The notes below the pieces were generated by a model. That model was given only the letters and a program-made list of their open reading frames with translations, was not told the origin of the DNA and ran no database searches. Made by a program: the position numbers and the translations under genes. This document shows positions 2,804 to 47,271 of a DNA stretch of 49,292 nucleotides, in pieces. The stretch comes from Terrimicrobiaceae bacterium (GTDB taxonomy: Bacteria; Verrucomicrobiota; Verrucomicrobiia; Chthoniobacterales; Terrimicrobiaceae): the NCBI GenBank assembly GCA_021463905.1, contig JAJTZA010000068.1:1-49292 (forward strand). The letters run 5' to 3'. How positions within the stretch are numbered: the first letter of the stretch is position 1; each line of letters starts with the position of its first letter.

Positions 2804-3907
2804 ATGAGTATTTCCGCCATTGATGGCCTCAGGGCCCGGCGTCCGCATCTGTTTCAATCGCCGGAATTTTGGCGTTCCCGCTGGGAGCATGTGGTGCGGC
2901 AGGCGGAAAGCGTTGCCTGCGGACAGGCTCAAGAGATTGGTGAGAGCGCAAGCGGACGCAAAATTCCGGCATTTTTTTACGGGGCCTTCGAGCCGGTGTC
3001 TCCGACGGCCACGATTTCCAGCGCGATGGCCTCGGATCGTCCTGGTGCCTTCTATGCGCCTTCGCAGCGAAAAACCCTCTCGCTTGCGCTCATCGGCTCG
3101 ATTCATGGCGGAGAAACCGAGGGCATCGCCTGCTGTCTGAGTCTCCTCCGGCTGCTCGAGACCGGTCGGGATTGGCGGGGTCAACCCCGGCCCGCATTGC
3201 TGGATAAAATGAGCCGTGTTCGTCTGAGCATTGTCCCGTGTCTGAACCCAGACGGGCGCATCGCCGCAGGCGTGGATCATTTATGCGGTGGCGAGCTGGA
3301 GGATCTGTTTCTCGTGCAACAGGGCCTTCTGGCGGATGGGACTCTCTTTCGCGGGCGTAAGATCAAGGAGACGCAGCCCATTCCGCCGGGGATGCTGCAA
3401 TTCATGGGGGGGTATTACAATGCAGCGGGAGTCAATCTGCAGCATGATGATTTTCTCGGGCCAGAAATTGCTCCAGAAAACCGGGCCATCCAAAAAATGT
3501 TTCGGAGAGAGATTCCTGACGCCTTTCTGACCATGCACGCGCATGGAGCGCGGGCGGCATTTCTGGCTCCGGACGGACTGCTTCCTCCGGGTTACCAACG
3601 GAAGCAAACCGGGGCGGTTGGGTTTATTCTGGGAGAGATGCACCGGCAGGGAATACCATTTCTGGCTTCCGAGGACATCACGACGCCGCCATGGAGTTTT
3701 TATTTTCAGGTCTGGCTGCATTTTATGACCGGGGCGACGCCGTTGCTCTTTGAGTTCAGTCATGGACTGGCCATGCAACCAGCATCGCTCGAGCAAATTA
3801 TGGAAACCGGCTACTGCGTTTTCGAAGCATGGTTGGACTACAATCTGGCCTTCAGCCCCCGCCCCGCGACTCCCGACTTGTTTGGCGCGACCACGCCCGC
3901 CGCGTAG
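2804..3907 (+). CDS. M14-family zinc carboxypeptidase-like protein
   Basis: MSISAIDGLRARRPHLF...; LIGSIHGGETEG (HxxE-type Zn site), VPCLNPDGR, MHAHG, FEFSHG. Confidence 0.75.
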   Translation: MSISAIDGLRARRPHLFQSPEFWRSRWEHVVRQAESVACGQAQEIGESASGRKIPAFFYGAFEPVSPTATISSAMASDRPGAFYAPSQRKTLSLALIGSIHGGETEGIACCLSLLRLLETGRDWRGQPRPALLDKMSRVRLSIVPCLNPDGRIAAGVDHLCGGELEDLFLVQQGLLADGTLFRGRKIKETQPIPPGMLQFMGGYYNAAGVNLQHDDFLGPEIAPENRAIQKMFRREIPDAFLTMHAHGARAAFLAPDGLLPPGYQRKQTGAVGFILGEMHRQGIPFLASEDITTPPWSFYFQVWLHFMTGATPLLFEFSHGLAMQPASLEQIMETGYCVFEAWLDYNLAFSPRPATPDLFGATTPAA

Positions 3908-3925
3908 TCGGCCGTCTGCGCGATG

Positions 3926-4112
3926 TCCTATTTGCGGCGTCCCTGCCAGAAATCGTTGGGCATTTCGGCAACGGTTTTAGGAACTTCTTCGCGCGTGATG
4001 GCGCGGACATGGTGGTGTAAATGCTCCGGAACATCCACGGAGAGTCCGGCATGTCCTCTTTGGCCAGCGGGAAAAGCAAGGGGCTGAGAAAACACGGATG
4101 AGCGATGACCCG
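3926..4112 (-). pseudogene. Relic of prepilin-type (pseudopilin) gene, internally deleted, paralogous to 5893..6660
   Basis: Near-identical 3' end (VRAITREEVPKTVAEMPNDFWQGRRK) plus a fragment matching PLAKVDAPDTQWMFRGIYT (here PLAKEDMPDSPWMFRSIYT); the interval between them is missing. Confidence 0.8.
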
Positions 4113-4120
4113 ATCTGATT

Positions 4121-5428
4121 TCACGATTTTCCGATAATCCGGCGCGGAGCTTTGAGTGGAGGCGGATCGGAGAACCCCAAAAAGGCTTCGCCGGATTTCC
4201 AATCACCCAAGGCGTACGTGCGTTTATTCCTTAAATCGCTTACGCCTTCGCGCCACGCATTGAGCAGATGCTTGCCGATCTCGCGAAAGCCGGGGTGTTC
4301 TTTCATCGCCCGTCGCACCCGGGGGGCCGTGTCGGAAATGGCATCTCCGATTTTTTCGACGAGAGCCGCTTGCTCCCGTGGCGGAATGCCGAAATTTCCT
4401 GCGAGGAACTTTTCGAGATTTTTTCCGGGTTGCCAGGTCTTTTTTCCCATGAACGAGATACCGGGCGGACTGTCTTTATGCTCGGCATAAACACAGGTGG
4501 TCAGCATGTCGTAAACGGGCGCGATTTGAACGTCTGCCCTTGAAGTGTAGGTCAGGGCGATGTTCTTGGCGTGGCAGTCGGCATTGCGCAACGCGTAGGT
4601 CAGCAGGATTGTGGCGGCCAGATGATGAAAAGTTTCCCGTTGCTTTGCTCCAGGAACGTTATCCCGCACGGCTTTGCCAATGCGTTCCCATGTTGTCTCG
4701 TATTTGGCTGATGGCCGCATGCCGAGCAGGGCGCAGAAATCTTCCAGCCCGTATTTTGGCTGGCCATCCCCATCCACATCGAACCGATGGACGACGAGTG
4801 CCTGCCCATCCTGGGAAACTTCTGTGCGAGCCGTGGGCACGATTTTGGCCGCTACTTGCATGCCCAGATGTTCGTTCAGGGCGACGAAAGGCAGATGTTG
4901 TGACGACCCTTTGACGATGTGCCTGCGCGTGAAAAGAGTCGCCTTGCCGTATTGTGAAAAGCGCGATCCTTTTTGCACATCCAGAAACTTCGGCACGACA
5001 CCCGACACGCCACTGGTCGCATACTTGCGCACCAGCGCCGAAAATGCCGCCTCGGAATTATCGCCTTTCAGTAATTCCGCCACATCCAAAGGCGTGACAG
5101 GTTCGTTCAAATCGGCTCCAGGGACAGCAACTTGCAGGCGACCGATCATGTTTCGTCCGACAATCGAGAGTAACGTGATGGGACTGGCTCCGATATGGCG
5201 GCCAAACTGTTCTTCCAGCACATGCAGCAGATATCCCTCGGGAAGATTCATGCGAAAAATTGGGTGCAGGGGATCGTCCCAAACCCATGACTCCGTCCGC
5301 ACTGGCATGGTCAGCGAGACCAAATGATTCGGATCCGCGCCTGCCTCATAGGTCAGAACGCTCTTGAAATCACCAATGCTTTCCAACGTGGCCACCGGCT
5401 TGCTCAAGACGAATACCGTCAGTTTCAT
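4121..5428 (-). CDS. hipA: HipA-family type II toxin (Ser/Thr kinase)
   Basis: MKLTVFVLSKPVATLE...FRMNLPEGYLL...GASPITLLSIVGRNMIGRLQV...ATSGVSGVVPKFL...LRNADCHAKNIALTYT...PVYDMLTT; HipA N-terminal and catalytic motifs. Confidence 0.9.
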   Translation of the reverse strand: MKLTVFVLSKPVATLESIGDFKSVLTYEAGADPNHLVSLTMPVRTESWVWDDPLHPIFRMNLPEGYLLHVLEEQFGRHIGASPITLLSIVGRNMIGRLQVAVPGADLNEPVTPLDVAELLKGDNSEAAFSALVRKYATSGVSGVVPKFLDVQKGSRFSQYGKATLFTRRHIVKGSSQHLPFVALNEHLGMQVAAKIVPTARTEVSQDGQALVVHRFDVDGDGQPKYGLEDFCALLGMRPSAKYETTWERIGKAVRDNVPGAKQRETFHHLAATILLTYALRNADCHAKNIALTYTSRADVQIAPVYDMLTTCVYAEHKDSPPGISFMGKKTWQPGKNLEKFLAGNFGIPPREQAALVEKIGDAISDTAPRVRRAMKEHPGFREIGKHLLNAWREGVSDLRNKRTYALGDWKSGEAFLGFSDPPPLKAPRRIIGKS

Positions 5429-5676
5429 GACCCGCGCTCCTTCCGCAATTCATCCAGCGAACCCGCCGTGCCTTTTTCTGCAAACTGAATTTCCATCCCC
5501 AAAACCGCCAGCACGGCCAGCAGTTTCCGGGCTCCAAATTCCGCCGTCCGCCCTTGTTCAAATCGAGATAATGTTTCTGGAGTAATGCCTGACTGTGAGG
5601 CCACAACACCTTGCCGTTGTTTCAGGATCTTGCGTCGTTTTGCCACAGCTTCTCCTAGCTCTTGGAGTGTCGTCAT
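5425..5676 (-). CDS. HipB-like XRE-family antitoxin
   Basis: MTTLQELGEAVAKRRKILKQRQGVVASQSGITPETLSRFEQGRTAEFGARKLLAVLAVLGMEIQF; HTH of XRE type; 4-nt overlap with hipA. Confidence 0.85.
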   Translation of the reverse strand: MTTLQELGEAVAKRRKILKQRQGVVASQSGITPETLSRFEQGRTAEFGARKLLAVLAVLGMEIQFAEKGTAGSLDELRKERGS

Positions 5677-5695
5677 ATTGATATATATATCAATA
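5676..5695. promoter_or_regulatory. 20-bp perfect palindrome at hipB start, candidate autoregulatory operator
   Basis: TATTGATATATATATCAATA is self-complementary and abuts the ATG at 5676. Confidence 0.5.
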
Positions 5696-5784
5696 AAACT
5701 CAGAGTTCCAAGAAGAATTGACATAAATTTCAAAAAAATGCCCCAATGAGGGCCGCCTCTCGAATTTTACTTTCTCCCCACGAT

Positions 5785-5891
5785 GGCAGGCGCAAGAGAT
5801 TGGTAAGAGCGCAGGCGGAAGAAAAATTCCTGCGTTTTTCACGAGGCGTTCGAACTGGTCTCCTCGACGGTCACGATTTCCTGTGCGGTGA
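5785..5891 (+). pseudogene. Relic of M14 peptidase gene (paralogous to about 2927..3030)
   Basis: aggcgcaagagattggtaagagcgcaggcggaagaaaaattcctgcgtttttcacgaggcgttcgaactggtctcctcgacggtcacgatttcc closely matches the intact gene at 2927-3020, then jumps to sequence matching the 3' flank at about 3918. Confidence 0.8.
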
Positions 5892-5892
5892 T

Positions 5893-6660
5893 CTATTTGC
5901 GGCGTCCCTGCCAGAAATCATTGGGCATTTCGGCGACGGTTTTAGGAACTTCTTCGCGCGTGATGGCGCGGACGCTTCCATCGGCAAACGCCACGTTCAC
6001 ATTTTTGTTGTGCCTGCTCTCCAGCTTTTGCCACGACTCCTCGTTGTTGACTCCAGCAATGGCAGCAAGGTAATGACCGAAAAATTCCATGTAGAGCATC
6101 ATTTTTGAAGGTTCATGCACGCTCAAGCGATTGAGAACACTATTGCTGTTCCCCCCCGTACCTGGGCAATAGGCGTTTTGGGCATAGCTCAGACCATATT
6201 TGACGGGTTTGTTGGTGACAGGGTCTGTATAGGTGGAGGGAGTGTAAATCCCTCGGAACATCCACTGAGTGTCCGGCGCGTCCACTTTAGCCAATGGGCA
6301 CACCAAGGGGCTATTCATGTAATTTTCGCCGGTGCCGGGGATTTTTCCAAGATAGGGGATGAGATAATTGGAAAAAACAGTTCCTACTGCGCTGGGTGGC
6401 CAGTCGCCATTATGGTCGTTGGAATAGGTTGCTGATGCCGCACTGATTTGTCTCAGGTTGGAAACACATCGCATCATGGCCGCCTTTTTATGCACGCTCT
6501 TCAAGGAAGGCATGAGGAGAGCGACTAGTACAGCCAGAATGGCCACGATGGCGAGGATTTCGATCAGCGACAGACCACGACAGGAGGACGCCTCACTTCG
6601 GAGAAAAATTGGCGGGCGGCGGGTTCGTTTAGTTTTGGGGATCATGGAGGAGTTCCTCAA
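5893..6660 (-). CDS. Prepilin-type N-terminal cleavage/methylation domain protein (pseudopilin-like, DUF1559-type)
   Basis: CRGLSLIEILAIVAILAVLVALLMPSL prepilin segment; C-terminal NVAFADGSVRAITREEVP; possible alternative start at 6645. Confidence 0.85.
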   Translation of the reverse strand: MRNSSMIPKTKRTRRPPIFLRSEASSCRGLSLIEILAIVAILAVLVALLMPSLKSVHKKAAMMRCVSNLRQISAASATYSNDHNGDWPPSAVGTVFSNYLIPYLGKIPGTGENYMNSPLVCPLAKVDAPDTQWMFRGIYTPSTYTDPVTNKPVKYGLSYAQNAYCPGTGGNSNSVLNRLSVHEPSKMMLYMEFFGHYLAAIAGVNNEESWQKLESRHNKNVNVAFADGSVRAITREEVPKTVAEMPNDFWQGRRK

Positions 6661-7867
6661 GGGCTTTATTTAATCGTTCCTCGATTTGCGGTGTGGCCAG
6701 GCTGGCTGTTGGTTCGTAACCACCCTCCTCGAACATTGCTGCGGTGGGCAGATAAAAATAGGTTGAGTTTCCATGAGATGCGCAGGCGACCAGCGCTTCC
6801 GGAGCAAGCGACTGTGCGTAAATCTGGTATTCGACAACCGCCTCCGAGGGGAACGAAAGAATGTGGACGCCCTCGCCCAGACTCAGCCGATAGAGCGAGA
6901 TATTTTCCCACTTTTCCTGTTCTTTGGCCAAGAGCCGCTTTGCTTCTTCCAATAGACTGGTCTCTTTTTCAGTCCAATCAAAAGGGAAGAGGAACTCCGC
7001 ACGGGCAAAAGAAATCGGGCCGAGTGGTCGCTCCTCAAGATGCTGGATATTGGACACCAATCCCCCTCCCATGCGGCAACCCATCATCCGCAGACTTTTC
7101 TCCTTGTCGCCAAGAAAATATTTCCCAAGGGTCACGTCGCCGGAGCAACCCGTCAAATACATGTGGAATATCCCATCCCCCAGTGTGCTTTCCGCGTAAG
7201 CCAGTGCCACACCGGGCATATCTGCGCTCACGAGGCTGCGATGGTAGGCGGTCATGGGATGAGTGGCATAAAAATGCAGAGCCACCAGCGGTTTCCCGTT
7301 ATTGTCCGCCAGAGCGATTGTGCGCAGGAGTGGGTCAATTTTTCCCACCGGACGCGCACGGAGTCTCGGGTCATCGCACATGCTGAATCGCGTGGCAACG
7401 CTGCGTCCGTTCTCGATGATGCGCCGATTGGCTGCCAAACCACTCATTCGCTGCTCAGCAACCATCAGTTTGGCCGCCACCGACCATTCAGCTGCAGCCG
7501 TTTCGCGGACGGTCGTCTCCAGCCTTGCGATGGTCTGCTCGGCATAACCAAGATCTGAAGTCAGAAATCCAACTGCCTCGATATCGGATGTCGCTGTGAT
7601 GCGCATGCTGTCGTGTTGGTGCAGGCAATGTAGAAGCACGCGCTCCTCTTCAATTTGGGCCGCTGCGGCAATGCGTCGTCGCCAGTCCAGCCATGCCTGT
7701 CCCCAGATGTAGAGGAAATCGCAGGCGACAAGTGCTGCGCGATTGATGCCATCATCGAGCAAGATCCCCCGGATAAAAATGGGAGAGTCCACTCCCTGAC
7801 AAACGCTGTAAGCCATGAACGCCCCGACTGAAGGAGTCACATCAATCTGGAAGGTGGTGAATTTCAT
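6629..7867 (-). CDS. Neutral/alkaline ceramidase-like hydrolase superfamily protein
   Basis: MKFTTFQIDVTPSVGAFMAYSVCQGVDSPIFIRGILLDDGINRAALVACDF...HCLHQHDSMR...YLTGCSGDVTLGKY; overall pattern of this superfamily. Substrate unknown. Confidence 0.6.
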   Translation of the reverse strand: MKFTTFQIDVTPSVGAFMAYSVCQGVDSPIFIRGILLDDGINRAALVACDFLYIWGQAWLDWRRRIAAAAQIEEERVLLHCLHQHDSMRITATSDIEAVGFLTSDLGYAEQTIARLETTVRETAAAEWSVAAKLMVAEQRMSGLAANRRIIENGRSVATRFSMCDDPRLRARPVGKIDPLLRTIALADNNGKPLVALHFYATHPMTAYHRSLVSADMPGVALAYAESTLGDGIFHMYLTGCSGDVTLGKYFLGDKEKSLRMMGCRMGGGLVSNIQHLEERPLGPISFARAEFLFPFDWTEKETSLLEEAKRLLAKEQEKWENISLYRLSLGEGVHILSFPSEAVVEYQIYAQSLAPEALVACASHGNSTYFYLPTAAMFEEGGYEPTASLATPQIEERLNKALEELLHDPQN

Positions 7868-7889
7868 GGCAACGGAACTGCCATTTCCC

Positions 7890-9131
7890 TCACATTTTTT
7901 CCTCAAGGTCACGCATCACTTCGGCCATGCGATCCACCACATCTTCCGTCATGGACTCGTTAAAGGCAATCATCATGTGATTGGCAAGTGCTCTCTCTGC
8001 GTTGGGGCAGCAATTGTCGTAGTCGGGAACGCGCTGGCATTGTGGCAGTGACCAGGGGATGCCTGAATCTGCAAAAATCCGCTTGTTGGCGAACCACGGC
8101 TGCTTGGCAATGAGTGATGTGTAGGTGGGCGCGGCGGGAATGCCGACATCGCAGAGCTGTTGTGCGATTTTTTCCTTGGAGAGAGACTCCTCTCCCCCAA
8201 ACACACGCATCCGAAGAAACCAATATGCGGATTCGGCCTGCTCCGGCATCCATCCCAGCGAGAAAAGCGAGGACCCCGACAGTGCGGCACGGAGGCGTGC
8301 AGCCAATCTCTGCCGCCGGGAAATAAAGGCCGGCAAGCGACGCAATTGCACCCGCCCCATCGCGGCCTCAAGCTCCGTCATACGATAGTTCAGGCCCAAA
8401 AATCCCCCCACATCAGAGCGGGAAAAGTTTTTTCCGCGATCCGCAAAGCTCTTGGCTCTCCAATACAGAGCTTCGTCGTTCGTCGTGACCATGCCGCCCT
8501 GTCCGCCCGAGGTGTGGTGTTTTCCGCTCATAAGGCTGAACGCGCCCAATGTGCCAAAACTGCCCACCCTCTGGCCGTTCCACGTTGCATCATGCGCCTG
8601 TGCCACATCTTCAATCACTGGCAGATGGTGGCGGCTTGCAACTTCCATGATCGCCCCCATGTCACACGGCTCGCCGGCAATATGTGCCACCACGATGGCC
8701 CGGGTCTGGTCGGTGATCACCTTCTCGATGCTCTCCGCTGTGACATTAAAAGTCTCCGGATCGGTATCCGCAAAAACTGGAATACACAAACTTGCCAAAA
8801 CCGGGCCGATGCCTCCGGGATCGGTAATCGGCGGACAAATCACCTCGCTGCCAGGCTCAAGATTCAGCGCAGCAATCGCTGCGTGAACAGCTGCTGTACC
8901 CGAACTCACCGCCGTGGCAAACCCGGTTCCCATGTGTGCGGCAAACTCTTGCTCGTAGGCATCCACCTCTTCACCACCATAGCGATCAAAGGCCGTATGT
9001 TTTGCAATCGCCTTGTCAATCACGCGCAGCACTGCGTCACGCTCCTCTTCGCTAATCAGAGCGCGTCGGAAATCCTCCGGCTGAAAACGAGAGGACACGG
9101 ACGATTTTGTTTGGTTTGACGACTTGGACAT
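7890..9131 (-). CDS. DegT/DnrJ/EryC1/StrS-family PLP-dependent aminotransferase
   Basis: GTGFATAVSSGTAAVHAAIAALNLEPGSEVICPPITD...PVIEDVAQAHDATWNGQRVGSFGTLGAFSLMSGKHHTSGGQGGMVTTND, includes the PLP lysine region. Confidence 0.9.
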   Translation of the reverse strand: MSKSSNQTKSSVSSRFQPEDFRRALISEEERDAVLRVIDKAIAKHTAFDRYGGEEVDAYEQEFAAHMGTGFATAVSSGTAAVHAAIAALNLEPGSEVICPPITDPGGIGPVLASLCIPVFADTDPETFNVTAESIEKVITDQTRAIVVAHIAGEPCDMGAIMEVASRHHLPVIEDVAQAHDATWNGQRVGSFGTLGAFSLMSGKHHTSGGQGGMVTTNDEALYWRAKSFADRGKNFSRSDVGGFLGLNYRMTELEAAMGRVQLRRLPAFISRRQRLAARLRAALSGSSLFSLGWMPEQAESAYWFLRMRVFGGEESLSKEKIAQQLCDVGIPAAPTYTSLIAKQPWFANKRIFADSGIPWSLPQCQRVPDYDNCCPNAERALANHMMIAFNESMTEDVVDRMAEVMRDLEEKM

Positions 9132-9135
9132 ACAA

Positions 9136-9153
9136 ACTGGTTTCTAGTGGTTT
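9136..9153 (+). promoter_or_regulatory. Operator-like element S1 (TGGTTT-N4-TGGTTT direct repeat, 10-bp spacing)
   Basis: ACTGGTTTCTAGTGGTTT, 4 bp from the start codon at 9131; orientation opposite to the gene. Confidence 0.6.
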
Positions 9154-9205
9154 CTTTGTAAAATGACAATCAAAAAATCGAATACGCCGTTGGCTTGTGG
9201 GCGAT

Positions 9206-9970
9206 TCAGACGGGCAGAAAGGCCCGGGCATTTCGGAAGGCGATATCTTGTTGTGCCGACCCGCAGATGGCGGCTCCCGTCAATTTTCTGACGGAGGCTT
9301 GCGTGTAGAAAAAGGGCGAGTGCGATCCGAAGAGGAGCCGGTTGGGAGGAACCGTGGCCAGCAGGCTTTCGACAGTGGTTCCGCTCTCCGCGAAGGAGAT
9401 GTCACAGAGAGCGTTGTTGTTATCGGAGAGGATGGCTGGAATGTGGTTTGCCAGTGCGCCGAGGACGAGGATGCGCAAGTGGGGAAAAAGGGCGGCGAGG
9501 TGGGCGATGTGTTCCGGTGGCGGCGGGGTGACCTGCAGGAGAGGGTATTGATTGCGCTCGTCCTCGATCCGCATTTGGACAATGAGAGGGATGTTGAGGC
9601 GCAGGAGGGTCTCGGCCAGCTCGATGACGCGCCAGTCCAGCAGCGGATAAAGGTGGTAGCTGGGCGCGATCCGCACGAGGTGAAAGCCGTTGACTTCGAT
9701 GGCGGTTTGCAGGCTTTCGCGCCAATTTCCGAGAATGGGGTTGATGGTTTTCACCAATTTCACCTGAGGGTGATTTTGAAACGCTTCGCGCAATCGGGCG
9801 TCGGGGATATCCACGTCGGGAAAGAGGAGGGACTCTATCGAGGATATCCAAGCTTCTTGGATGCCCTCTGCCTGGAGATTCCTGATGAGCGCCCCGGGGG
9901 TGATGGCGGAGAAATCCATCCACGGCCAGAAGCCAAAAGAAACATGGGTATCTATGAGACGTGGAATCAT
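9206..9970 (-). CDS. Amidohydrolase-family (TIM-barrel) protein
   Basis: MIPRLIDTHVSFGFWPWMDF...LFGSHSPFFYTQASVRKL...DIAFRNARAFLPV; amidohydrolase_2-like ending. Confidence 0.65.
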   Translation of the reverse strand: MIPRLIDTHVSFGFWPWMDFSAITPGALIRNLQAEGIQEAWISSIESLLFPDVDIPDARLREAFQNHPQVKLVKTINPILGNWRESLQTAIEVNGFHLVRIAPSYHLYPLLDWRVIELAETLLRLNIPLIVQMRIEDERNQYPLLQVTPPPPEHIAHLAALFPHLRILVLGALANHIPAILSDNNNALCDISFAESGTTVESLLATVPPNRLLFGSHSPFFYTQASVRKLTGAAICGSAQQDIAFRNARAFLPV

Positions 9971-10737
9971 GGAGCGGGAATGCCAAGAAGACGCGCGGCG
10001 TTGTCTCCGAGAATGGCCTTGCGGTCGGCTTGCCGGAGGCGGGCCCCCTCCACGCGCCCGATTTGCGCGGCAAAATCACGCACGGGAAAATCCGATCCAA
10101 ACAGGACGCGCTGTGGGCCCAGATGCTTCACCGCGTACTCGACCATGCCGCTGACCGGAGGCGAGCCGGATGTGTCCACCAAAACATTCGGGTGATCTTT
10201 TACATCCAACACCCCGCGCATCCCGCAGGCGGTCAGATGGGCCATGAGAATTTTGGTGCGGGGATGGCGGGCGGCGAGGTGCGCAATGTCGGAGGGGTCG
10301 GATTCGAGAGCCACCTTCGAGACCGTTTTATACCACGCGTGATGCAAAACAAAGGCGTCCCGCTCGGCGAGCATTTCCATGATGGGATCAAGGCGGGCAT
10401 CCCGGGCATTGATCTCGTACTCCAGTTTTACGCCGGAGAGCCCGGCATCGAGACAACGAGACAATTCGGTGATAAGGAAATCGGTCGGAAGGGCGGGGTT
10501 CAGGAAGCACAGTCCGAAGAGCCTTCCGGGATGCCGTCGCACGATGGCGAGAGTGGCGTCATTGATCTTCCGAACTCCCTTCTGATCGGGGTAGGAGTAG
10601 AAGGCACCCAGAAGACACAGTGCGCCAATGCCTTGACGCGCGGCGAGCTCTAGCATGGCGTCACCTTCCTCCGGGTCGGGATGAGTGAGAAACTTTCCAC
10701 CCTTCCAGCGGGGGTGCGTATGGATGTCTATGATCAC
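9967..10737 (-). CDS. Amidohydrolase-family (TIM-barrel) metal-dependent hydrolase
   Basis: GTG start: VIIDIHTHPRW...GVKLEYEI...FVLHHAWY...KILMAHLTACG...NVLVDTSG...RVLFGSDFPV...ILGDNAARLLGI. Confidence 0.8.
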   Translation of the reverse strand: MIIDIHTHPRWKGGKFLTHPDPEEGDAMLELAARQGIGALCLLGAFYSYPDQKGVRKINDATLAIVRRHPGRLFGLCFLNPALPTDFLITELSRCLDAGLSGVKLEYEINARDARLDPIMEMLAERDAFVLHHAWYKTVSKVALESDPSDIAHLAARHPRTKILMAHLTACGMRGVLDVKDHPNVLVDTSGSPPVSGMVEYAVKHLGPQRVLFGSDFPVRDFAAQIGRVEGARLRQADRKAILGDNAARLLGIPAP

Positions 10738-12644
10738 GCCAAATCCACTTTTACAATATCGCTTCCATTGGTTGTGGCGAGAATTTCTCCTGTGTCCAGC
10801 AGCGAAAAGAAGTGCCATGCCTCGGATCCGGAGGCCACACGCGAAACCGAGTCGTTCGCGAGATGGAGCAGATGGATGTCGGAGCCGCCTTCCGTCTGGG
10901 GGATCGAGACGAGAACGCGCTCCTCATCCAGGAAAACGCCAGAGGTGGGTGCGTCATGTTCCCAAGCGCCGATGCGAAGAGACCTTTGGGAGACATCGAA
11001 CAGGTAGTATTGGGACGCGCCAAATCCGATCATTTGTCCTGCCGCCGAAAGTGCCAATGCCCCGAGAGATTGGGCGGGCCAGGGCGAAACACTAAAAACC
11101 GTTTTTTTCTCCACGGGGTTCCAGGTAAAAATCACCGCGTTTGCGGCTTCGGGAAGGCAGCTTCCCTGATCTCCATGGATTTCCGTTGTGCCAACAAACA
11201 CGTCCCGGTATTGAAAAAACGAGCAGGGATTTTGCCTGGGCACAAAATCGCGAAAGACTTCGCAGCCGCCATCGCGGGGGTTGATCACGCTGATTGCGCC
11301 GCCCAACTCGCCGTATTCGGCGCGGGTGGCGATATAAAGACGGCTGTCATCATGAAACAACCCCATCGGGCGGCTTTGTGCATGGCCGACCACACACAGC
11401 TCCCGGGGATTTTCTCCATAAACGAACGGTTCATCCGGGTTCCATGCAAGAACATGCGCATTGCCGTATGCTCCAAGGTAAACCACACCCTCATAGGAAG
11501 TGGAGCACGTGATTTGGCCGCGATCACTCAGAACTTTATTGAGCGAGGAATGCGCCGCTCCGGTTTCCATGTCCACTGAAAAAACCTGGCTATTGATGAA
11601 ATGCGATCCGACCACCACAGGACGATCCGGCAATTTCTCCAGGGAGTGAATGCCCAGCCCCCTGCAGGAAATGTTTTCGATCTGCGTAATGGCCAGCGGC
11701 CCGTCCTCAAGTGAAAATTTCGCAACCTGTCCATTGTCGCCCTGACAGACGAAGGTCTCCTCGGCAATTTCATGGATCGGCCCGGTGACTTTATTTCCCG
11801 AATGAAGGCCCGTTTCCACTTGGTGCCAGCGATTGTCCGCCAGGGCAAAAACGCGACCGCTGGAAGCACCCACGCCCATCAGTCGTCCCTGCGTGGAATT
11901 GAGCCAGGAAAAAGCCTCGGGAGTGTCCTCGAGGAAATCCTCCTCGCGCGTCCCCTCGTGAAAGTTGAAGGTGTGGATGGCGTGCTGGCTGCCGTAAATC
12001 ACCCGCTCGTTGTCCAACAAACAGAGCGCAGACCGCAACAGGCTGTTCCGCTCGTCATGGGTCATGGCAAAGCGTTCCTCGATTTGGCCATTCGAGGGCT
12101 GGTAGATGATCAGCTCGGAGTGTGCGCCCCACAATTTCACCAGAATGCGACCGTCCGGGAGTTCGAGGAATTGCCGTGCGTACACTCCGGTCGTCGTGTC
12201 TGGCAGCGGAGCGATAATGCGGCAGTTTCCGGTGGCGGTGTCGTATTCGGCGAATTCTCCGGTGGGATAGTAACCGACATAAATTTTGCCGGCACGGCTC
12301 CCGCAGGCACTCCATGCGAGGCGGTACGTTTTTGTGCCAAACGGCTCTGCCACCAGATCAAAGACGCGGGTGGCCGGGTCGAACCGGTAAATTCGTCCGT
12401 AAAAAAATCCCACGTAGAGGCGATCGTCGTTTCCCAGCGCGAAGCCGTAGGGACCGGTTTGATGATCCGGTACGGGGATCCATACGGATTCCATGTTTCC
12501 GACATGAGTCAAAAACAGACGTGTGTCGCGCCCCTCGCTGGAAAAATTGATAGAGGCCAGACAAAGCGATTTGCTCAGGAAATGGGTATCGTTGTTCACG
12601 ATGGGCAGTCGGCAATCCGGCTGCGCGATGCGAGTGATTATCAT
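10734..12644 (-). CDS. Beta-propeller-type protein, no signal peptide (copy 1 of paralogous pair)
   Basis: MIITRIAQPDCRLPIVNNDTHFL...; repeated YVGFFYGRIYRFDP / IYVGYYPTGEFAEYD / LELPDGRILV blades; closely resembles 23326..25221. Confidence 0.7.
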   Translation of the reverse strand: MIITRIAQPDCRLPIVNNDTHFLSKSLCLASINFSSEGRDTRLFLTHVGNMESVWIPVPDHQTGPYGFALGNDDRLYVGFFYGRIYRFDPATRVFDLVAEPFGTKTYRLAWSACGSRAGKIYVGYYPTGEFAEYDTATGNCRIIAPLPDTTTGVYARQFLELPDGRILVKLWGAHSELIIYQPSNGQIEERFAMTHDERNSLLRSALCLLDNERVIYGSQHAIHTFNFHEGTREEDFLEDTPEAFSWLNSTQGRLMGVGASSGRVFALADNRWHQVETGLHSGNKVTGPIHEIAEETFVCQGDNGQVAKFSLEDGPLAITQIENISCRGLGIHSLEKLPDRPVVVGSHFINSQVFSVDMETGAAHSSLNKVLSDRGQITCSTSYEGVVYLGAYGNAHVLAWNPDEPFVYGENPRELCVVGHAQSRPMGLFHDDSRLYIATRAEYGELGGAISVINPRDGGCEVFRDFVPRQNPCSFFQYRDVFVGTTEIHGDQGSCLPEAANAVIFTWNPVEKKTVFSVSPWPAQSLGALALSAAGQMIGFGASQYYLFDVSQRSLRIGAWEHDAPTSGVFLDEERVLVSIPQTEGGSDIHLLHLANDSVSRVASGSEAWHFFSLLDTGEILATTNGSDIVKVDLA

Positions 12645-18436: not shown

Positions 18437-20968
18437 ATGCTTGTGCATGGGAAGATGTCCATATTTGCGGGGTTGCGATCCGTTTTGAGGTATTGGGTTG
18501 CGCTGGGGTGGGTGGGGTGCCTTGGTGCGGCGGATCCGGCGCAGGAGGCTTCGGGTGAAGTGTTGGCGCAGGTATTTTGCCGGGGGGAGACACTCCCCCT
18601 GGTGATTGAGGCGTCGCCGGGTGCCGGGCCTGCGGCCGAGGTCCTTCGGAAGCGGCTCGAGGCTTCGTTGGGTCAGCGGGTTCTGGAGGATCGGGGGCGC
18701 GGCGGGCGGGAAAGAGAAAGGGAAAGGGAAGACGGGAAGGTTTTTCGCATTCATGTGGGGCAGACACCCTACGTCGAGACTCTGGGGCTGGACTTTGCCA
18801 CCCTGCACCCTTTCGGCTACTTCATCAGACTGGTGGACGGCGAGAATCTCGTTCTTACCGGGTCTGGAAAATCGCCGACGGCTGACGAATACGCTGTCTA
18901 TGATTTTTTGAAGCGATTTATGGGCTACCGGTATTTTGCTCCGGGAGAGTGGGGGGAAGTCACGCCCCGGCATGCGCGTATCGAGCTGCCCGACACGCTG
19001 GATGACCGGGAAGAGCCTTCGATTTTGTCGTACACCAATGCGGGATTCGCGGGCGGCAACGGGGGATTTTCCCGAAGCTGGCGGACGACGCTCTACGCGA
19101 CGCACGCGCTCGGACGCATCGTTCCGGTCGCGAAGTTTGGTAAGACCCATCCTGAGTATTATCCGATGTATGACGGTCAACGCTTCATTCCCGGCGAGAA
19201 ATTGGGTGGCACCTGGCAGCCCTGCGTGAGCAATCCCGACCTGCCCGGATTGGCCATCCAGTGGGCGAAGACCTACTTCAAGGAAAATCCGACCGCTCTG
19301 GGGTTCCCGCTGGGCGTCAACGATGGGGGGGGAGACTGCCGCTGTCCGGAGTGTCTGAAAGCCAAGGCCGCTTACGGCAATCAGTACATTCCATTTTACA
19401 ATGAGACCGCGCGTCTGGCCAAAGCGGCCTTCCCGGGGAAGTACGTCGGCTTTATCGCCTATGGCGGTGCCCGGCCCGCTCCCAGAAATATCACGCTCGA
19501 AGACAACCTGCTCGTGGAAGTGACCGGAGGGATGGCGGAAGATATGCGGCAATTCCGGGAATGGCGCGCGGCGGGCATCAAGCATTTTGGGTTATACGAC
19601 TATTTCTACGGCGGCGGGTACGTCGTGCCACGCCACTACCCCCGCCTCATGGCCCAGGCGTGGCGCACAGTCGCCAAGGAGTTTGGCCTGCTCAGCCTCT
19701 GGGGCGAGTCCTTCATCAAGTCCTGGATTTTTGACGGCCCCCGCCAGTATGTCCTCAACGAGCTGGCCTGGAATCTGGATGCCCCGGTCGAGAGCCTCCT
19801 CACAGACTATTTTGACAATTTCTACGGCCCGGCCTCCACGCCGATGCGGGCCGTCTTTGACCGACTGGAAGACATCTACACGCGAAAACGCGAAGCTCTT
19901 TACCCCATTGCCGATTGGAAGGACTGGCATCAGTTTGCGGAGTTTACCACCGACGATCTGACGGTCATCCGTGCGCATTTGGACAAGGCCCGGGTGCTCG
20001 CGAAGGACGATGCGGCCTGCGCCCGGCGAGTTGGGCAATTCGTAAAATTGTGGGGGCTTTCCGAGCTTTTCGTGCGGTCATTTTTGGCCACCCAGGAAAT
20101 GACGAATTTATCGGCGGGCGACCCGCGCTGGCATGAAATTGCGGACAGCGGGTATGCGCTGTTTCAGCAGATCGAGGATTTTTCCTTGTCCGCCGAAGAG
20201 GAGAAAAGTCTCTTGGTCAACAGCAGTCTCGCGCAATACAAGGGACATGAGAGACTCAAAATGCGCAGTACCATGGATTCGGCCATAGACGAATTTTTGG
20301 GGAGAACCCGCGCCAAATTGGGCGGGCGGATGGACGCATTTTTAGAGGGGGCGCGGGTTCTGGCTCCGCAGACGCGCCTGATCGTGGAGAGCCATCAGCG
20401 TGAAGCCCATCAGGAACCGGGAACGCGCCAGGATGTCTTTGCGCTCCCGCCCTCCGAGCCTGCGCGGGCGCGCTCCTCCGACTGGGAAAGCCTCTCCGAG
20501 ACCATGCCCGGCTGGAGTACATGGCACTTTCCCAATTCCAAGACGGTGTTTGAAATAAGTGACCGGGATAGCCCCGGGGGCAGGCCGTCCATGATCATTC
20601 GGCAAAATGATATTCGGGGATCTTTTTTGCGCGCGTGGTCGGTGCAGCCCGGAGAGGTTTATCGCATCCGGCTGAGGGTCAGGCAGGACGTTGGAGAAAA
20701 GCCGGGAAGCCTGCACATCCGGTGGAAGGATCAGCGCGGCCAGTGGCTTCCTTCCGAAGACCAAGGTTCGCAATCGCCGGTGTCTCAGCAATTTCCGGAG
20801 CCGACGGGCCAGTGGCAGGCGATAACCAGGCTGTTCGCGATTCCCGATGGGGCGGATGCGATGATCATTCTCCTCTCGGCACCCGTTCAGGATGACACAC
20901 GCGCCACTGCGTTTCATGATGTGGCACTCTACAAAATCCACGATGCCCAACCCTCCGCCCACCCATGA
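18437..20968 (+). CDS. DUF4838-domain secreted protein (glycoside-hydrolase-like)
   Basis: HVGQTPYVETLGLD...GYFIRLVDGENLVLTGSGKSPTADEYAVYDFLKRFMGYRYFAPGEWGEVTP...LGVNDGGGDCRCPECLKAKA...NIYFPLAY-like regions. Confidence 0.8.
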   Translation: MLVHGKMSIFAGLRSVLRYWVALGWVGCLGAADPAQEASGEVLAQVFCRGETLPLVIEASPGAGPAAEVLRKRLEASLGQRVLEDRGRGGREREREREDGKVFRIHVGQTPYVETLGLDFATLHPFGYFIRLVDGENLVLTGSGKSPTADEYAVYDFLKRFMGYRYFAPGEWGEVTPRHARIELPDTLDDREEPSILSYTNAGFAGGNGGFSRSWRTTLYATHALGRIVPVAKFGKTHPEYYPMYDGQRFIPGEKLGGTWQPCVSNPDLPGLAIQWAKTYFKENPTALGFPLGVNDGGGDCRCPECLKAKAAYGNQYIPFYNETARLAKAAFPGKYVGFIAYGGARPAPRNITLEDNLLVEVTGGMAEDMRQFREWRAAGIKHFGLYDYFYGGGYVVPRHYPRLMAQAWRTVAKEFGLLSLWGESFIKSWIFDGPRQYVLNELAWNLDAPVESLLTDYFDNFYGPASTPMRAVFDRLEDIYTRKREALYPIADWKDWHQFAEFTTDDLTVIRAHLDKARVLAKDDAACARRVGQFVKLWGLSELFVRSFLATQEMTNLSAGDPRWHEIADSGYALFQQIEDFSLSAEEEKSLLVNSSLAQYKGHERLKMRSTMDSAIDEFLGRTRAKLGGRMDAFLEGARVLAPQTRLIVESHQREAHQEPGTRQDVFALPPSEPARARSSDWESLSETMPGWSTWHFPNSKTVFEISDRDSPGGRPSMIIRQNDIRGSFLRAWSVQPGEVYRIRLRVRQDVGEKPGSLHIRWKDQRGQWLPSEDQGSQSPVSQQFPEPTGQWQAITRLFAIPDGADAMIILLSAPVQDDTRATAFHDVALYKIHDAQPSAHP

Positions 20969-23181
20969 GCCGGATCGGGATGCTATGCGCCTCGCTGCTC
21001 TTTTGTGAAATGACCCTTGCCACCCCGCCACCCGCCACCCCACTGTCGCCCCACACGCCTGCGGGTTTTGCCGTGGATACCCAATTCCCCGGCGACCCTC
21101 AGGCGAACGCATCGGCGGAAAACGCCCGCAGGCTCCTCGGCCTCATGGGGCTGCGCGAATCGCCCGATGCGGGATGGCATATCCGTCTTCTAAAAAACAC
21201 CTCCCTTCCATGCGGCGAGTATCACCTGCAAGGCAGCGCGGAGGGCGTCCGCATCGAAGCCTCCGACGCAGAGGGTGTCCGACGCGGAGTGTCCGCGTTC
21301 CTCCACGAGCTGGGCGTGCGCTGGTTTGATCCCGCAAGCGAGCCGCTGCTGCCCGCCATCCCGGCTCCCCTCCCCGACTTTCAACACCAAAGCGGGCCGT
21401 CGTTTCCCTACCGCGGGCTGCACATCTGCGGAGCGCCGGATCACTACGACCCCCGCCTCGCCGACTGGATGAGCTTTCAGGGAATGAACCGCAAGCTGAC
21501 CCATATCCCCGAACTCGAGCGTGTCGGCGGCGCACTGAAACGCCAGGGTCTCTCACCGGACACCACGGTCCACAGCTATTCCCTCTGGATCCCGGACGAA
21601 ATATACTTTGCCAGCCATCCGGAATTTTTCGCGTTGGTGGGCGGCAGGCGCATCCCGCACCGCGAGGGCGGCCAACTCTGTCTGGCCAACCGCGCCATGC
21701 GCGCGGCCTTCCTTCGCGAAGCGCGGAGCTACCTGGACGCCCATCCGGAAGTTTCCGTGATAGGCATCTGCCCCGACGATGGGTACGGATGGTGCGAGTG
21801 CCCGGCCTGCGCCGCGCTGGATACTGCCGAAGACCGCGCGGCAGGCAAGGTCAATGCCCGTGTCGCGGATTTTGTCGAGGAGCTTTGTCGGGGGCTGCAG
21901 GAGAGCCACCCGCAGACGCTTGTCGGCCATTATTCCTACAGCATCTTCAGCGACTTCTCTCATCATCTGAAATCGCCACCCCCAAACCTGCTGGTCAGTT
22001 GCACCACCGCGCGCTGCTACAAGCACGGGATTGATGCGGCGGAATGCCCTGTCAATCGCGACATCTTCCAGCGGCTGCGCACGTTGCGCGACAGGGTTCG
22101 CCACGTCTATGTGTATGACTATATGTTCTACCGATGGGAGGGGTTGCCGCATCCGCAATGGCGCGTCATCGGGCGGGATGTCGCCGCCTACGCGAAATTG
22201 GGCCTGGATGGCTACATGACGGAAGCGCCCCCCGCAAACGCGAAGGATTATGCCGCCGCTCATCTCTCGCTGTACACGCTGGCGCGCCTGCTGACCGACC
22301 GTCAAACCGATGTGGGGGCGCTGCTCGATGATTATTGTGCCAGGCGCTTTGAGAAGGCCGCCGTGCCGATGCGCTCGTATCTGACCCTGTGGGAGGATGC
22401 CCTGGCCGGAATGGAGGGCTGTCTGACTCATGGCGGAGACGACCTCGAGCGTCTCATTCAGCCGGAGTTTTCCGCGAAGGCTTCGATTCTCCTCGATCAG
22501 GCCATGCGCTCGGCCACCGGAGCGGCTGCTGAAGCGGTGCGCGACGAACAAAAACTCTTCCAACGATGGATGCAGATTTTAGAAGCGCGCCGCGTGGCGG
22601 CTCAAAAATTACCGGTCAGGATTGGAACGATGGAGGAGTTTCATCGCGATATTGAGCGGACGACAGCCAATGATGAGGGTCTTTCCTTTCTCGACCACAC
22701 CCTCAAAATCGCGCCTCAAGACCACTCGACCCGTGCGCGTCTCTACGCCGACCGGGACGCACTGGGTCTCGTCATCGAATGTGAGGAGCCCGAAATGCGC
22801 AAAATATCCGACAAGCCCGGAGATTCTCTCGGAGCGGTTTGCGGCAGCGAGCATGTCGAAATTTTTCTGCGCGACGGCCAGGACGAGCGCGTCTGCTATC
22901 ATTTCCTGGTCAGCATCTCCGGAGGACAGGCCGCATCCGAGTGTCATGGTTCGCGGTGGAACTGGGCGTGGGAATCCGGCACCTCGACGGAAGTTCGCCG
23001 TTCCGAGGGCTTCTGGAAGGTGGGCATGAAAATCCCTCTTTCTAAAATCCGGGCCGATCGGAAGTTGGCGTTTTCTCTCATCAGGAACCGCTTTGTTCAC
23101 GATTGGCAAAAATCGGGGGTTCCCGAGGGCGGCGTCTTCTTCAACACCAGCCGCTATCTGGAAACGAACCTGCCGGAATAA
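20965..23181 (+). CDS. DUF4838-domain secreted protein with C-terminal CBM9-like region
   Basis: ASDAEGVRRGVSAFLHELGVRWFDP...ICPDDGYGWCECPACAALD...; C-terminal LYADRDALGLVIECEEPE...HVEIFLRDGQ...MKIPLSKI. ATGA overlap with upstream gene. Confidence 0.8.
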   Translation: MSRIGMLCASLLFCEMTLATPPPATPLSPHTPAGFAVDTQFPGDPQANASAENARRLLGLMGLRESPDAGWHIRLLKNTSLPCGEYHLQGSAEGVRIEASDAEGVRRGVSAFLHELGVRWFDPASEPLLPAIPAPLPDFQHQSGPSFPYRGLHICGAPDHYDPRLADWMSFQGMNRKLTHIPELERVGGALKRQGLSPDTTVHSYSLWIPDEIYFASHPEFFALVGGRRIPHREGGQLCLANRAMRAAFLREARSYLDAHPEVSVIGICPDDGYGWCECPACAALDTAEDRAAGKVNARVADFVEELCRGLQESHPQTLVGHYSYSIFSDFSHHLKSPPPNLLVSCTTARCYKHGIDAAECPVNRDIFQRLRTLRDRVRHVYVYDYMFYRWEGLPHPQWRVIGRDVAAYAKLGLDGYMTEAPPANAKDYAAAHLSLYTLARLLTDRQTDVGALLDDYCARRFEKAAVPMRSYLTLWEDALAGMEGCLTHGGDDLERLIQPEFSAKASILLDQAMRSATGAAAEAVRDEQKLFQRWMQILEARRVAAQKLPVRIGTMEEFHRDIERTTANDEGLSFLDHTLKIAPQDHSTRARLYADRDALGLVIECEEPEMRKISDKPGDSLGAVCGSEHVEIFLRDGQDERVCYHFLVSISGGQAASECHGSRWNWAWESGTSTEVRRSEGFWKVGMKIPLSKIRADRKLAFSLIRNRFVHDWQKSGVPEGGVFFNTSRYLETNLPE

Positions 23182-39669: not shown

Positions 39670-41217
39670 CTAAAAGTTCAGCAGAGAGGCGGCGGATTTG
39701 AGCAGTGCCGCTCGTGAGATGGAGTGTTCATTTCCGACGATATTGACCGCCTGTGCGCCTGCGAGCTGGCCCAGGAATGTGGCCACATCGAGGGGAAGCC
39801 CGCGCGCTGCCGCCAGGCCTACCAGAGAAAAGAAGGCGTCTCCCGCACCCACCGTGTCGGTGACTTCGGTGGCCAACGGCGGAATCAACACCGGCGGACG
39901 CCCCCTGGCATGTCCGATCGTCAGAACGCTCCCGCGCGTGAGCCAGCCATATCGCGCGCCAAAGGATGTGGCCAGCCGCTCCAGCTCGACCTCTCCCTCC
40001 GGATTTCGCTGACCGCACGCGAGCATCATTTCCTGCAGGTCGAGCGAAAAGGCGTCCGCGCGCTGGTATTGGCGCGTAATGATATTGAACCCGTGGTTGT
40101 TGCTGTTGGTCTGGCAATTCAAGACGAGAAAGGGCGCCTCATTTTGAACCATCTCGCGCAGTTCCTTTTGCATCAGACCATGACCGAAATCCGCAAGCAA
40201 CACCACGTCGCAGGATTTCATTTCGGAACGGAGGGTTTCCAGAAGTCGCCGCCCCGTGTCCTTCGATGGAGGCGTGTTGTCCAAAAAATTGACCGAGAAG
40301 AGCTTGGAAAGCTCATTCTCATTATCGAGCGGCTCGACGTAGCGTTTTTTCACAACGGTGGTAAAATTCGGGTCGCGCGTGGTCGCGTCCTCCTCCGGGC
40401 TTATGGTGCCTGCCAGCAGCTCCTCCACCCACGGCTCGCCACCCAGCAGGCTGACAAACCGAACGTGATCGCAGAACTCCCTGACATGACGAAACACGGC
40501 CAGCGCACCTCCCAGGTGGGTGTCCTGACGAAGAAATTTCCCTGAGATGATGCGATTTTTCGAGGTGAGACCCTGGACCTTCAAATACGAGTATTGGTCA
40601 ATGATGGTATCGCCAACGACGAGCACACGCAGCCCGCGAAAGCTTTCGATCATCGTCTGGAAATCCTTTCCGGAGACCCGCGTGGCCAGGTCGCGGCAGA
40701 ACTCCCGCACAGGCTCGGCGAGATGGCTGAAATGACGGTTGAGCAGCCGCGTTGAGCTGAAGACCACCGAGCCGATGTAGCGGGTCTCTCCGCCATGCGC
40801 GGCCACCTCTTTCAGATCATCGTGGATATTGCCGGTCACATCGTTGTCCGGGTTTTCGTATTCCCGGCCCTTGCAATAGACAGCGGGCTTGACCAGACGG
40901 ATGGCCTCGACCGCCGCCGGAAAAGGAATCAACACGACATAGTCCACGCATTCAAGCGCCGCCAGGCTGTGTGCCCTCAGCTCATCGTTGAAGCAGGGCC
41001 GTCCCGGCCCTTTATTGACAAAGGCCTCGGCGGTCACCGTCACCACCAGCGCATCCCCGAGTGCCCGCGCCTCCTCGAGGTGGATGACATGACCAGGATG
41101 CACAAGATCGAATGTTCCATGACACTGCACCAGACGCTTTCCTTCAGCGCGCAATCTCTCGAAGCGCTCCGCCGCTTCCGCAACCCCGAGAATCTTGGAG
41201 TGTGTCGCCTGACTCAT
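39670..41217 (-). CDS. Fused cytidylyltransferase (N) and PfkB-family sugar kinase (C), HldE-like with reversed domain order
   Basis: QCHGTFDLVHPGHVIHLEEARALGD (nucleotidyltransferase) then LVVGDTIIDQYSYL...TDTVGAGDAFFSLVGLA (PfkB). Confidence 0.85.
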   Translation of the reverse strand: MSQATHSKILGVAEAAERFERLRAEGKRLVQCHGTFDLVHPGHVIHLEEARALGDALVVTVTAEAFVNKGPGRPCFNDELRAHSLAALECVDYVVLIPFPAAVEAIRLVKPAVYCKGREYENPDNDVTGNIHDDLKEVAAHGGETRYIGSVVFSSTRLLNRHFSHLAEPVREFCRDLATRVSGKDFQTMIESFRGLRVLVVGDTIIDQYSYLKVQGLTSKNRIISGKFLRQDTHLGGALAVFRHVREFCDHVRFVSLLGGEPWVEELLAGTISPEEDATTRDPNFTTVVKKRYVEPLDNENELSKLFSVNFLDNTPPSKDTGRRLLETLRSEMKSCDVVLLADFGHGLMQKELREMVQNEAPFLVLNCQTNSNNHGFNIITRQYQRADAFSLDLQEMMLACGQRNPEGEVELERLATSFGARYGWLTRGSVLTIGHARGRPPVLIPPLATEVTDTVGAGDAFFSLVGLAAARGLPLDVATFLGQLAGAQAVNIVGNEHSISRAALLKSAASLLNF

Positions 41218-44540: not shown

Positions 44541-44649
44541 GATATTTCGTTTTGTTATGAGGAAGAAAACTTAGTTCACGATGCGATGATTTGCAAGTGG
44601 TTGCGCAAAGATTTCTCGATGGGGGGTGTTCCGCTGTGGTTTCTGGCGA

Positions 44650-45540
44650 TCAATCAATGAGACGACAGGCGATGTCGCCGTAGGCGTCAATGCGCCGGTC
44701 GCGCAGGAATGGCCAGTGGGTGCGCTGGGTCTCCACGGTTTGCAGGCTGATCTCGGCGACGAGGACGGTCTCCTCGGAGTCTCCCGCCCTGGCCAGAATC
44801 TCGCCGGACGGATTGCAAAGAAAGCTCTGGCCCCAGAACTCGATGCCGTCGCCGCCATCGGGTGCTTCGTGGCCCACGCGGTTGGGAACCGCCACATAGC
44901 AGCCATTGGCAATGGCATGGGCGCGCTGGATGGTCTCCCACGAGGAGTGGTGCGTCTTCCCATAGACCGCTTTTTCGGACGGATGCCAGCCGATGGCCGT
45001 GGGATAGAAAAGAATCTGTGCGCCACGCAGGGCGGTGAGTCGGGCCGCCTCGGGAAACCACTGATCCCAGCACACGCAAACGCCGACACGGACGCCACAA
45101 ACATCCCAGGCCTGAAAGCCGAGGTCGCCAGGCGTGAAGTAAAACTTCTCGTAGAAGAGCGGGTCATCGGGGATGTGCATCTTGCGGTATTTCCCGAGGA
45201 GCGCACCGTCCGGCCCCAAAATGACGGCGGTATTATGGTACAATCCGGCCGCGCGCCGCTCGAAAAGCGACAGGATGATCCCGACGCCCAGCTCCCGCGC
45301 AAGGTTTCCAAATCGTTCCGTCGAGGGGCCGGGGATGGTTTCGGCCAGCGCGAAGTACTTATGGTCTTCGGACTGACAGAAATAGACGGAGGCGAAAAGT
45401 TCCTGCAGGCAGACCAGCTTTGCGCCGCGCACCGCTGCCTCGCGGATTCCCCGCTCTGCCGCATCCAGGTTCTCCGCGACATTCGACCCGCAGCGGTTCT
45501 GCACGAGGCCGATGGAAATGCTTTCCGCGTGTTCAGCCAT
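44650..45540 (-). CDS. aguB: Carbon-nitrogen hydrolase, N-carbamoylputrescine amidase-like
   Basis: [18 protein letters not shown]...[24 protein letters not shown]...[34 protein letters not shown]. Confidence 0.9.
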
Positions 45541-45552
45541 GAAGGTCGTTCT

Positions 45553-46164
45553 TTATCGCTTCCCACCCGTCACCTGCGAGCGTGGGAGGATTTTTGCAGT
45601 TTTGATGAAGACCTTTTCCGTGGGCTTGCTGGGTTCGCCGTTCGGCGACATGGTCACCGGAGTCCTTTCGATGAGGTCGAGGGTTTTGTTCCCTTCCGCA
45701 TCCCCCTCCAAAACACGGCCAAAGGCGGTGTATTGGTGATCGAGGTGCGGGGAGGTTCCCAGCATGAGAAAGAATTGGCTTCCGGCAGAGTTGGGATCGG
45801 ACGAACGGGCCATCGAGATCACTCCACGCTCGTGCTTGCGATCGTTAAACTCAGCGGGAATTTTGTAGCCCGGATCACCGGTTCCCCAAAGAGACTCCTT
45901 CGCGGGATCCTTGGTCAGCGGATCCCCACCCTGCGCCATGAATCCCGCAATGATCCGGTGAAACGCCGTGCCATCATAAAACCCCGCGCGCACCAGCTTC
46001 TTGAAATTTTCCACAGTCCTGGGAGCTACATCCGGCCAGAACTCCACCACCAACCGCCCCCTGTTGGTCTCGAGAACCGCCACCTCATCATCCGCCCGCA
46101 CAGAAACACTGGCCGACACCCCCAGAACCCCCACCAACACCATCCCCAAAAGCTTTTTCATCAT
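45553..46164 (-). CDS. Secreted/periplasmic cyclophilin-type peptidyl-prolyl isomerase
   Basis: Signal peptide; [53 protein letters not shown]...[19 protein letters not shown]. Confidence 0.95.
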
Positions 46165-46299
46165 ACGCCCACCACCATTCCACAAACCAACGCGAAAACC
46201 AGCGCATTTTTGAGAATTTCACACTCCGTACGCTTTTCTTTTTCACAGGGAGGGGTTGCAATTCTGTTATGCAACAGGTATCGTTTGAGGAGAAATCCA

Positions 46300-47271
46300 A
46301 TGAGCACGAAATCAACACTCAGCAGCCTCGATCAACTCAAGCAATTCACGACTGTCGTTTCCGACACCGGGGATTTTGATTCGATTCGAAAATACGCACC
46401 GCAAGACGCCACGACAAATCCGACACTGATCCTCAAGGCGGTGAGTCGTCCCGAGTACCGTCACCTGCTGGACAAGGCCATTGCCGACAACCGTGGGTCG
46501 GGGCTCGGCGCGGACGCGCTTTTGCAAAAAATCATTGATGATCTGCTGACGCTTTTTGGGCGGGAGATTTTGCAGATCATTCCGGGGCGCGTGAGCACCG
46601 AGGTGGATGCGCGGCTGTCGTTTGATGTTGAGGCCACAGTCAAGCGCGCCGGCCAATTGATTGCCTTGTATGAGGGGATGGGGATACCGCGCGAGCGCAT
46701 TCTGATCAAGATCGCCTCGACATGGGAGGGGATTCGGGCGGCGGCGCTTTGCGAAAAGCAAAAGATAGCCTGCAATTTGACGCTTCTTTTTTCGTTGCCG
46801 CAGGCGGTTGCGGGGGCGGAGGCGGGGGTGACGTTGATATCGCCGTTTGTCGGGCGCATTTACGATTATTACAAGGCGGCCACGGGGAAGGATTTTTCCG
46901 GAGTGGAAGACCCCGGCGTGCAGTCGGTTCACAAAATCTACACGTACTACAAGAAGTTCGGGTATCCGACGCAGGTCATGGGAGCGAGCTTCCGGAATGT
47001 CGGGCAAATCACCGAGCTGGCAGGCTGCGATTTATTGACCATCAGCCCGGACCTGCTCGAAAAGCTCCAGGAGAGCGATGCGCCGGTTCCGCGCAAGTTG
47101 GATCCAAAATCCGCAGCCGCCGGAAACATCGAACGCATCGAAAATTCGGAAAAAAATTTCCGCTGGCTGATGAACGAAGATGCCATGGCGACGGACAAAC
47201 TGGCCTCGGGTATCCGCGTCTTTGGCGCAGACATCCGCAAGCTCGAGAAACTCATCACCGACGCCTTGTAA
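46300..47271 (+). CDS. tal: Transaldolase
   Basis: [47 protein letters not shown]...[15 protein letters not shown]...[12 protein letters not shown]...[13 protein letters not shown]; gaggag RBS upstream. Confidence 0.97.

Follow-up and report, generated by a model that had tools for sequence, protein, structure and literature searches.

A hipBA module between decayed direct repeats in a Terrimicrobiaceae bacterium: probable insertion with long target duplication

Introduction

How does a toxin-antitoxin pair that carries no mobility gene of its own enter a bacterial chromosome, and what becomes of the genes among which it settles? The mode of insertion of such chromosomal pairs is poorly documented. 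For restriction-modification genes, Nobusato et al. reportedly described in 2000 an insertion with long target duplication, in which the target is duplicated on both sides of the insert. A locus from a Terrimicrobiaceae bacterium (Verrucomicrobiota) raises the question for a hipBA module, since the module lies here between two diverged copies of part of a convergent peptidase-pseudopilin gene pair. The window, that is, the whole stretch of 49,292 nucleotides that was analysed (contig JAJTZA010000068.1 of assembly GCA_021463905.1), had at first been read as recording a duplication of the complete gene pair, each copy of which then lost the other gene. The analysis presented here retains the duplication and arrives at a different account of its extent and of the decay that followed.

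The locus stands near the left end of the window, beyond an ECF sigma factor gene (PF07638; 2152-2698, minus strand) that is seemingly split by a frameshift near 2490, as a pseudogene or through an assembly error, and that is adjoined by a serine/threonine kinase-like open frame (402-2132). Further along, two overlapping DUF4838 genes stand in tandem (18437-23181, plus strand), and an HldE-like protein (39670-41217, minus strand) has its adenylyltransferase before its sugar kinase, whereas in E. coli the two domains come the other way round. An 881-aa frame (44626-47271, plus strand) ends in a C-terminal transaldolase (residues 567-880), its N-terminal half being without an NCBIfam match.

A duplicated segment of a convergent gene pair

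Comparison of the interval from 2.4 to 7.2 kb with itself reveals three collinear direct-repeat blocks on both sides of hipBA. Positions 2924-3028 correspond to 5787-5890 at 81%, with one 1-nt indel (peptidase codons 41-75), 3916-4008 to 5881-5973 at 94% (the final 27 pilin codons and 12 nt of 3' flank), and 4015-4085 to 6242-6312 at 80% (pilin codons about 117-140). The score of the top ungapped block is 156, the highest among 200 dinucleotide shuffles being 31, and the blocks follow in the order that the initial annotation had predicted. A search of the whole host genome (2.04 Mb in 157 contigs, 72% complete) with 2804-4112 returned matches at the repeat places only, which points to a local duplication and not to a dispersed repeat. 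Other members of the pilin family are numerous in the host genome, but a protein search places them all at 26-39% identity. Taken together, the blocks make up a single unit of 1424 bp, which starts at peptidase codon 41, crosses the stop codons of both convergent genes and ends at about pilin codon 117. The left copy (2924-4085), delimited by the repeat blocks and a gapped alignment, comprises the peptidase from codon 41 and then a pilin relic from which about 262 bp have been deleted internally, while the right copy (5787-6312) is delimited by the repeat blocks and the genome-wide search.

Each gene of the pair is intact on one side. The M14-family zinc carboxypeptidase-like gene (2804-3907, plus strand, 367 aa; PF00246 at 7.5e-5, 22.9 bits against a cutoff of 21.6) lies within the duplicated unit from codon 41 onward and is open over its full length, and the M14 HGGE motif and the later His/Glu can be read intact from the sequence. 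The pseudopilin gene (5893-6660, minus strand; PF07596 at 1.7e-8, TIGR04294 above cutoff) is likewise open throughout, with a prepilin N-terminus whose GLSLIE site is intact and a DUF1559 / H-X9-DG C-terminal domain.

The surplus pieces have decayed. In the pseudopilin relic of the left copy (3926-4085, minus strand) the last 27 codons are fused, out of frame, with pilin codons about 140-117; the relic proposed by the initial annotation at 3926-4112 is thus real, its end lying at 4085. The peptidase relic of the right copy (5787-5890, plus strand; 5785-5891 as initially annotated, correct within 2 nt) consists of codons 41-75 with a 1-nt deletion and is fused to the pilin 3' end. The equivalent of 3029-3915, about 887 bp, is deleted from this copy, and the breakpoints lie in a 10-bp near-repeat, CAGCGCGATG (3019-3028) and CTGCGCGATG (3916-3925), as is typical of deletions between short repeats. 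Differences between relics and intact genes, counted over the peptidase block and the inner pilin block, number 13, 7 and 13 at first, second and third codon positions, and this absence of third-position bias fits decay, not long coding divergence. Moreover, the peptidase relic reads GKSAGGRKI where the intact gene reads GESASGRKI, and distant homologs have G-x-SAGGRE/DI; the relic is nearer to these than the intact copy is, which argues that it is a true old copy.

The pilin tail is a case of its own. Of the 81 sites in the last 27 codons, only 2 differ between 3928-4008 and 5893-5973, and both changes are synonymous, whereas about 19% of sites differ elsewhere. At that full rate, 2 or fewer differences would arise in this tract with a probability of 6e-6, and at half of it with one of 0.012. 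Gene conversion between the repeats is possible and would be the simplest explanation. An intrinsic terminator was dropped as the cause of the conservation of these 81 bp, as folding was no better than in shuffled sequences.

A foreign module at the joint

The only content between the repeats is hipBA, with neither a transposase nor an integrase: 4086-5786 amounts to the module and about 145 bp. The toxin kinase gene hipA (4121-5428, minus strand) encodes 435 aa with Couple_hipA and HipA_C domains in Pfam, the former N-terminal and the latter, the kinase domain, carrying the catalytic Asp/His/Asn motif; aligned with Legionella HipT (8ezr), the protein keeps the catalytic-loop NADCHAKN and the metal-binding YD motifs. 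The antitoxin gene hipB (5425-5676, minus strand) lies upstream of hipA with a 4-nt overlap. It encodes 83 aa from an ATG that matches the start in a Chthoniobacterales MAG (L025), the TTG start from the ORF tool giving 102 aa, and it matches HTH families and, at 6.1e-7, TIGR03070 couple_hipB, all below their thresholds. Directly upstream of hipB stands a palindromic operator-like sequence, ATTGATATATATATCAAT (5677-5700), with a similar sequence in L025 and in a Chthoniobacteraceae MAG (L026); sequence comparison finds the palindrome TTGATATATATATCAA, just ahead of hipB here, again in relatives. The module presumably works as an ordinary HipB/HipA kinase toxin-antitoxin pair.

The HipA protein is 91% identical to that of L025, in which the flanks of the module are unrelated, 72% identical to that of L026, and 58-68% identical to most other relatives, which belong to Acidobacteria and Proteobacteria. 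Within the host phylum, 6 of 388 genomes, the host included, have a hipBA match; the match is close in two, one of them the host and the other at 83%. DNA similarity to related loci is limited to hipBA and its operator. The unrelated flanks of so close a relative, the rarity of the module in the phylum and the abrupt end of similarity at hipBA and the operator together indicate that hipBA was acquired horizontally.

The novel joint of the duplication is occupied by this foreign module: 35 bp separate the hipA stop codon from the left copy, and about 110 bp, operator included, separate the hipB start from the right copy. The 35 bp (4086-4120), which the initial annotation had largely counted as pilin, resemble neither the pilin nor the gene upstream. 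In a test whose positive control scored above all 500 shuffles, 4086-4123 had no similarity to the region that would hold the missing pilin 5' part (6313-7912; shuffle p = 0.94), nor had 5677-5786 to the missing peptidase 5' part (p = 0.16). With no detectable remnant of the missing 5' ends beside hipBA, the relics were probably 5'-truncated copies from the start. The proposal that each of two complete copies lost the other gene is therefore not supported as it stood: one segmental duplication with hipBA between its copies stands, of which the unit is the inner part of the pair only. The reciprocal appearance of the decay follows from where the edges of the duplication fall and requires no history of two functional copies. 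Short target-site duplications, suggested near 4112-4121 and 5733-5785, are likewise lacking, as 4060-4160 and 5690-5800 have none of at least 7 bp in common, and the long repeat is the only duplication.

Other hipBA loci and the search for an empty site

It was of interest whether other hipBA loci have flanking repeats. In a Dokdonella MAG (L049), direct repeats of 188 bp enclose hipBA at distances of 55 and about 118 bp. One repeat is the 3' end of a RES-domain gene and its counterpart a frameshifted copy, and that genome has no further full-length copy of the gene. The L034 locus, from an Acidobacteria MAG, has part of a 307-codon reading frame, 146 bp in length, repeated on the far side of hipA. 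Leaving out the locus of the window itself, 6 of 30 hipBA loci have flanking direct repeats, as against 2 of 86 control spans of equal length on the same contigs (Fisher p = 0.004). The contrast is 4/30 to 1/86 for repeats at the nucleotide level (p = 0.016) and 2/30 to 0/86 for clear gene-fragment repeats (p = 0.065), the statistics being post hoc, after the window was seen, and the cases few. The excess is suggestive and no proof; the six loci include one with REP-like repeats (L059) and two, L027 and L091, whose matches are weak and at the protein level.

Two loci were not counted as gene duplications, L059, with its REP-like sequence in both orientations, and L037, with a 51-bp repeat in three copies (4132-4182, 6484-6534 and 8051-8098 of that locus), two of them around hipBA. 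The hipBA locus of E. coli K-12 (L088) is without a flanking direct repeat of at least 25 bp; it lies between the annotated pseudogenes yneL and yneO (5335-5537 and 7666-11001 of its stretch). Further hipBA loci sought in Gammaproteobacteria and plasmids proved too rare.

A relative with the gene pair and no hipBA was therefore sought. With the peptidase as the guide, a pattern scan of GTDB r220 yielded no such empty-site relative, nor did 57 relatives from the same family and order. The peptidase homologs of the class are only 31-33% identical, and in the stretches read none stands beside a pilin gene save in L074, where a distant pilin match lies about 3.2 kb from the peptidase homolog. As no empty site was found, the order of events is one that we infer.

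How the arrangement may have arisen

The reading that we hold to be somewhat better than even is a single event in which insertion and duplication went together, as an insertion with long target duplication. A horizontally acquired hipBA would have entered the interior of the convergent peptidase-pseudopilin pair, and the same event would have duplicated about 1.4 kb of target DNA, with hipBA left at the novel joint. Because it is the 3' parts of the two genes that were duplicated, a whole peptidase gene remains on the left and a whole pilin gene on the right, and neither was broken by the insertion. The surplus gene pieces were probably dead at birth and lost internal segments later, about 887 bp and 1 nt on the right and about 262 bp on the left. 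That insertion and duplication were one event is something we infer, as is the molecular route, for which template switching and the end-joining of a long staggered break are candidates. Complete copies might instead have been trimmed back to hipBA by later deletions, a course that needs more events.

Tandem duplications are common in bacteria, and their frequency speaks for a history in two steps, in which the 1.4-kb segment was duplicated first and hipBA subsequently landed between the copies or close by, with the joint trimmed in the process. The repeat blocks by themselves fit such a history as well, and it is the position of the module that tells against it. From hipBA to the exact joint is no more than about 110 bp, and by our estimate a random landing in a tandem of ~2.85 kb would come so close in far fewer than one in ten cases; the hipBA of L049 is placed equally tightly. 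Placement exactly at the joint thus favours one event over two, and we give the two-step history a modest chance.

Direct repeats around an insert, as seen here, are also what a single crossover would yield in a Campbell-type integration, had a circular DNA with hipBA and the peptidase-pilin segment of a related strain recombined once with the chromosome; a related hipBA (L080) does adjoin a P-loop ATPase gene, maybe of a mobile element. Such an origin is improbable, as nothing between the repeats resembles further plasmid or phage sequence, and two functional alleles that had diverged should show a third-position bias, which the differences lack. That the assembly joined strain variants of a metagenome bin is very improbable indeed: the host genome is a fragmented bin, yet the copies are 6-20% different and carry their own deletions where near-identical copies would be expected, and L049 offers the same architecture in an independent MAG.

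Relation to known systems

Insertion with long target duplication has been inferred from the comparison of Helicobacter strains, mostly for restriction-modification genes (PMC1643837), at which the long target duplications are 'in the order of 100 bp' (PMC3874152), and it has been suggested (PMC3031569) that an argument on mobility and post-segregational killing may apply to toxin-antitoxin systems too. Openly licensed full texts, the scope of our literature search, held no report of such an insertion for hipBA. Tentatively, this hipBA subfamily might tend to enter by insertion with long target duplication (1.4 kb here, about 0.15-0.2 kb elsewhere) and leave its neighbours intact, and this would account for the spread of toxin-antitoxin pairs that lack recombinases, though we think such a tendency less likely than the opposite. 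Should the pattern be borne out, long flanking repeats would mark hipBA insertions, the decay of these repeats could serve to date them, and the target genes would be seen to be spared, as has been proposed for restriction-modification modules.

With HipBA type II systems the module shares a HipB-like HTH antitoxin gene upstream of a full-length HipA-like kinase and a palindromic operator-like sequence, whereas its subfamily is distant from E. coli HipA and its NCBIfam and PDB matches are remote. The flanks resemble an ordinary tandem duplication with pseudogene decay in their direct repeats and in the deletions of the surplus copies at short near-repeats, and they differ from one in the foreign module at the joint and in a unit without the 5' end of either gene. 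The locus also resembles the restriction-modification insertions: long direct repeats of the target enclose an addiction-type module that has no recombinase of its own, both target genes survive, and the insert is foreign to the site, its flanks differing from those of its relatives elsewhere. Unlike those insertions, the module is a HipBA toxin-antitoxin module, the repeat of about 1.4 kb is far longer than the order of 100 bp, and the copies are old and decayed, while the empty-site comparison that defines the class has no counterpart here. Given these differences in repeat length, age and empty-site comparison, the shared topology and the sparing of the target make the locus a probable, not proven, member of this class of insertions.
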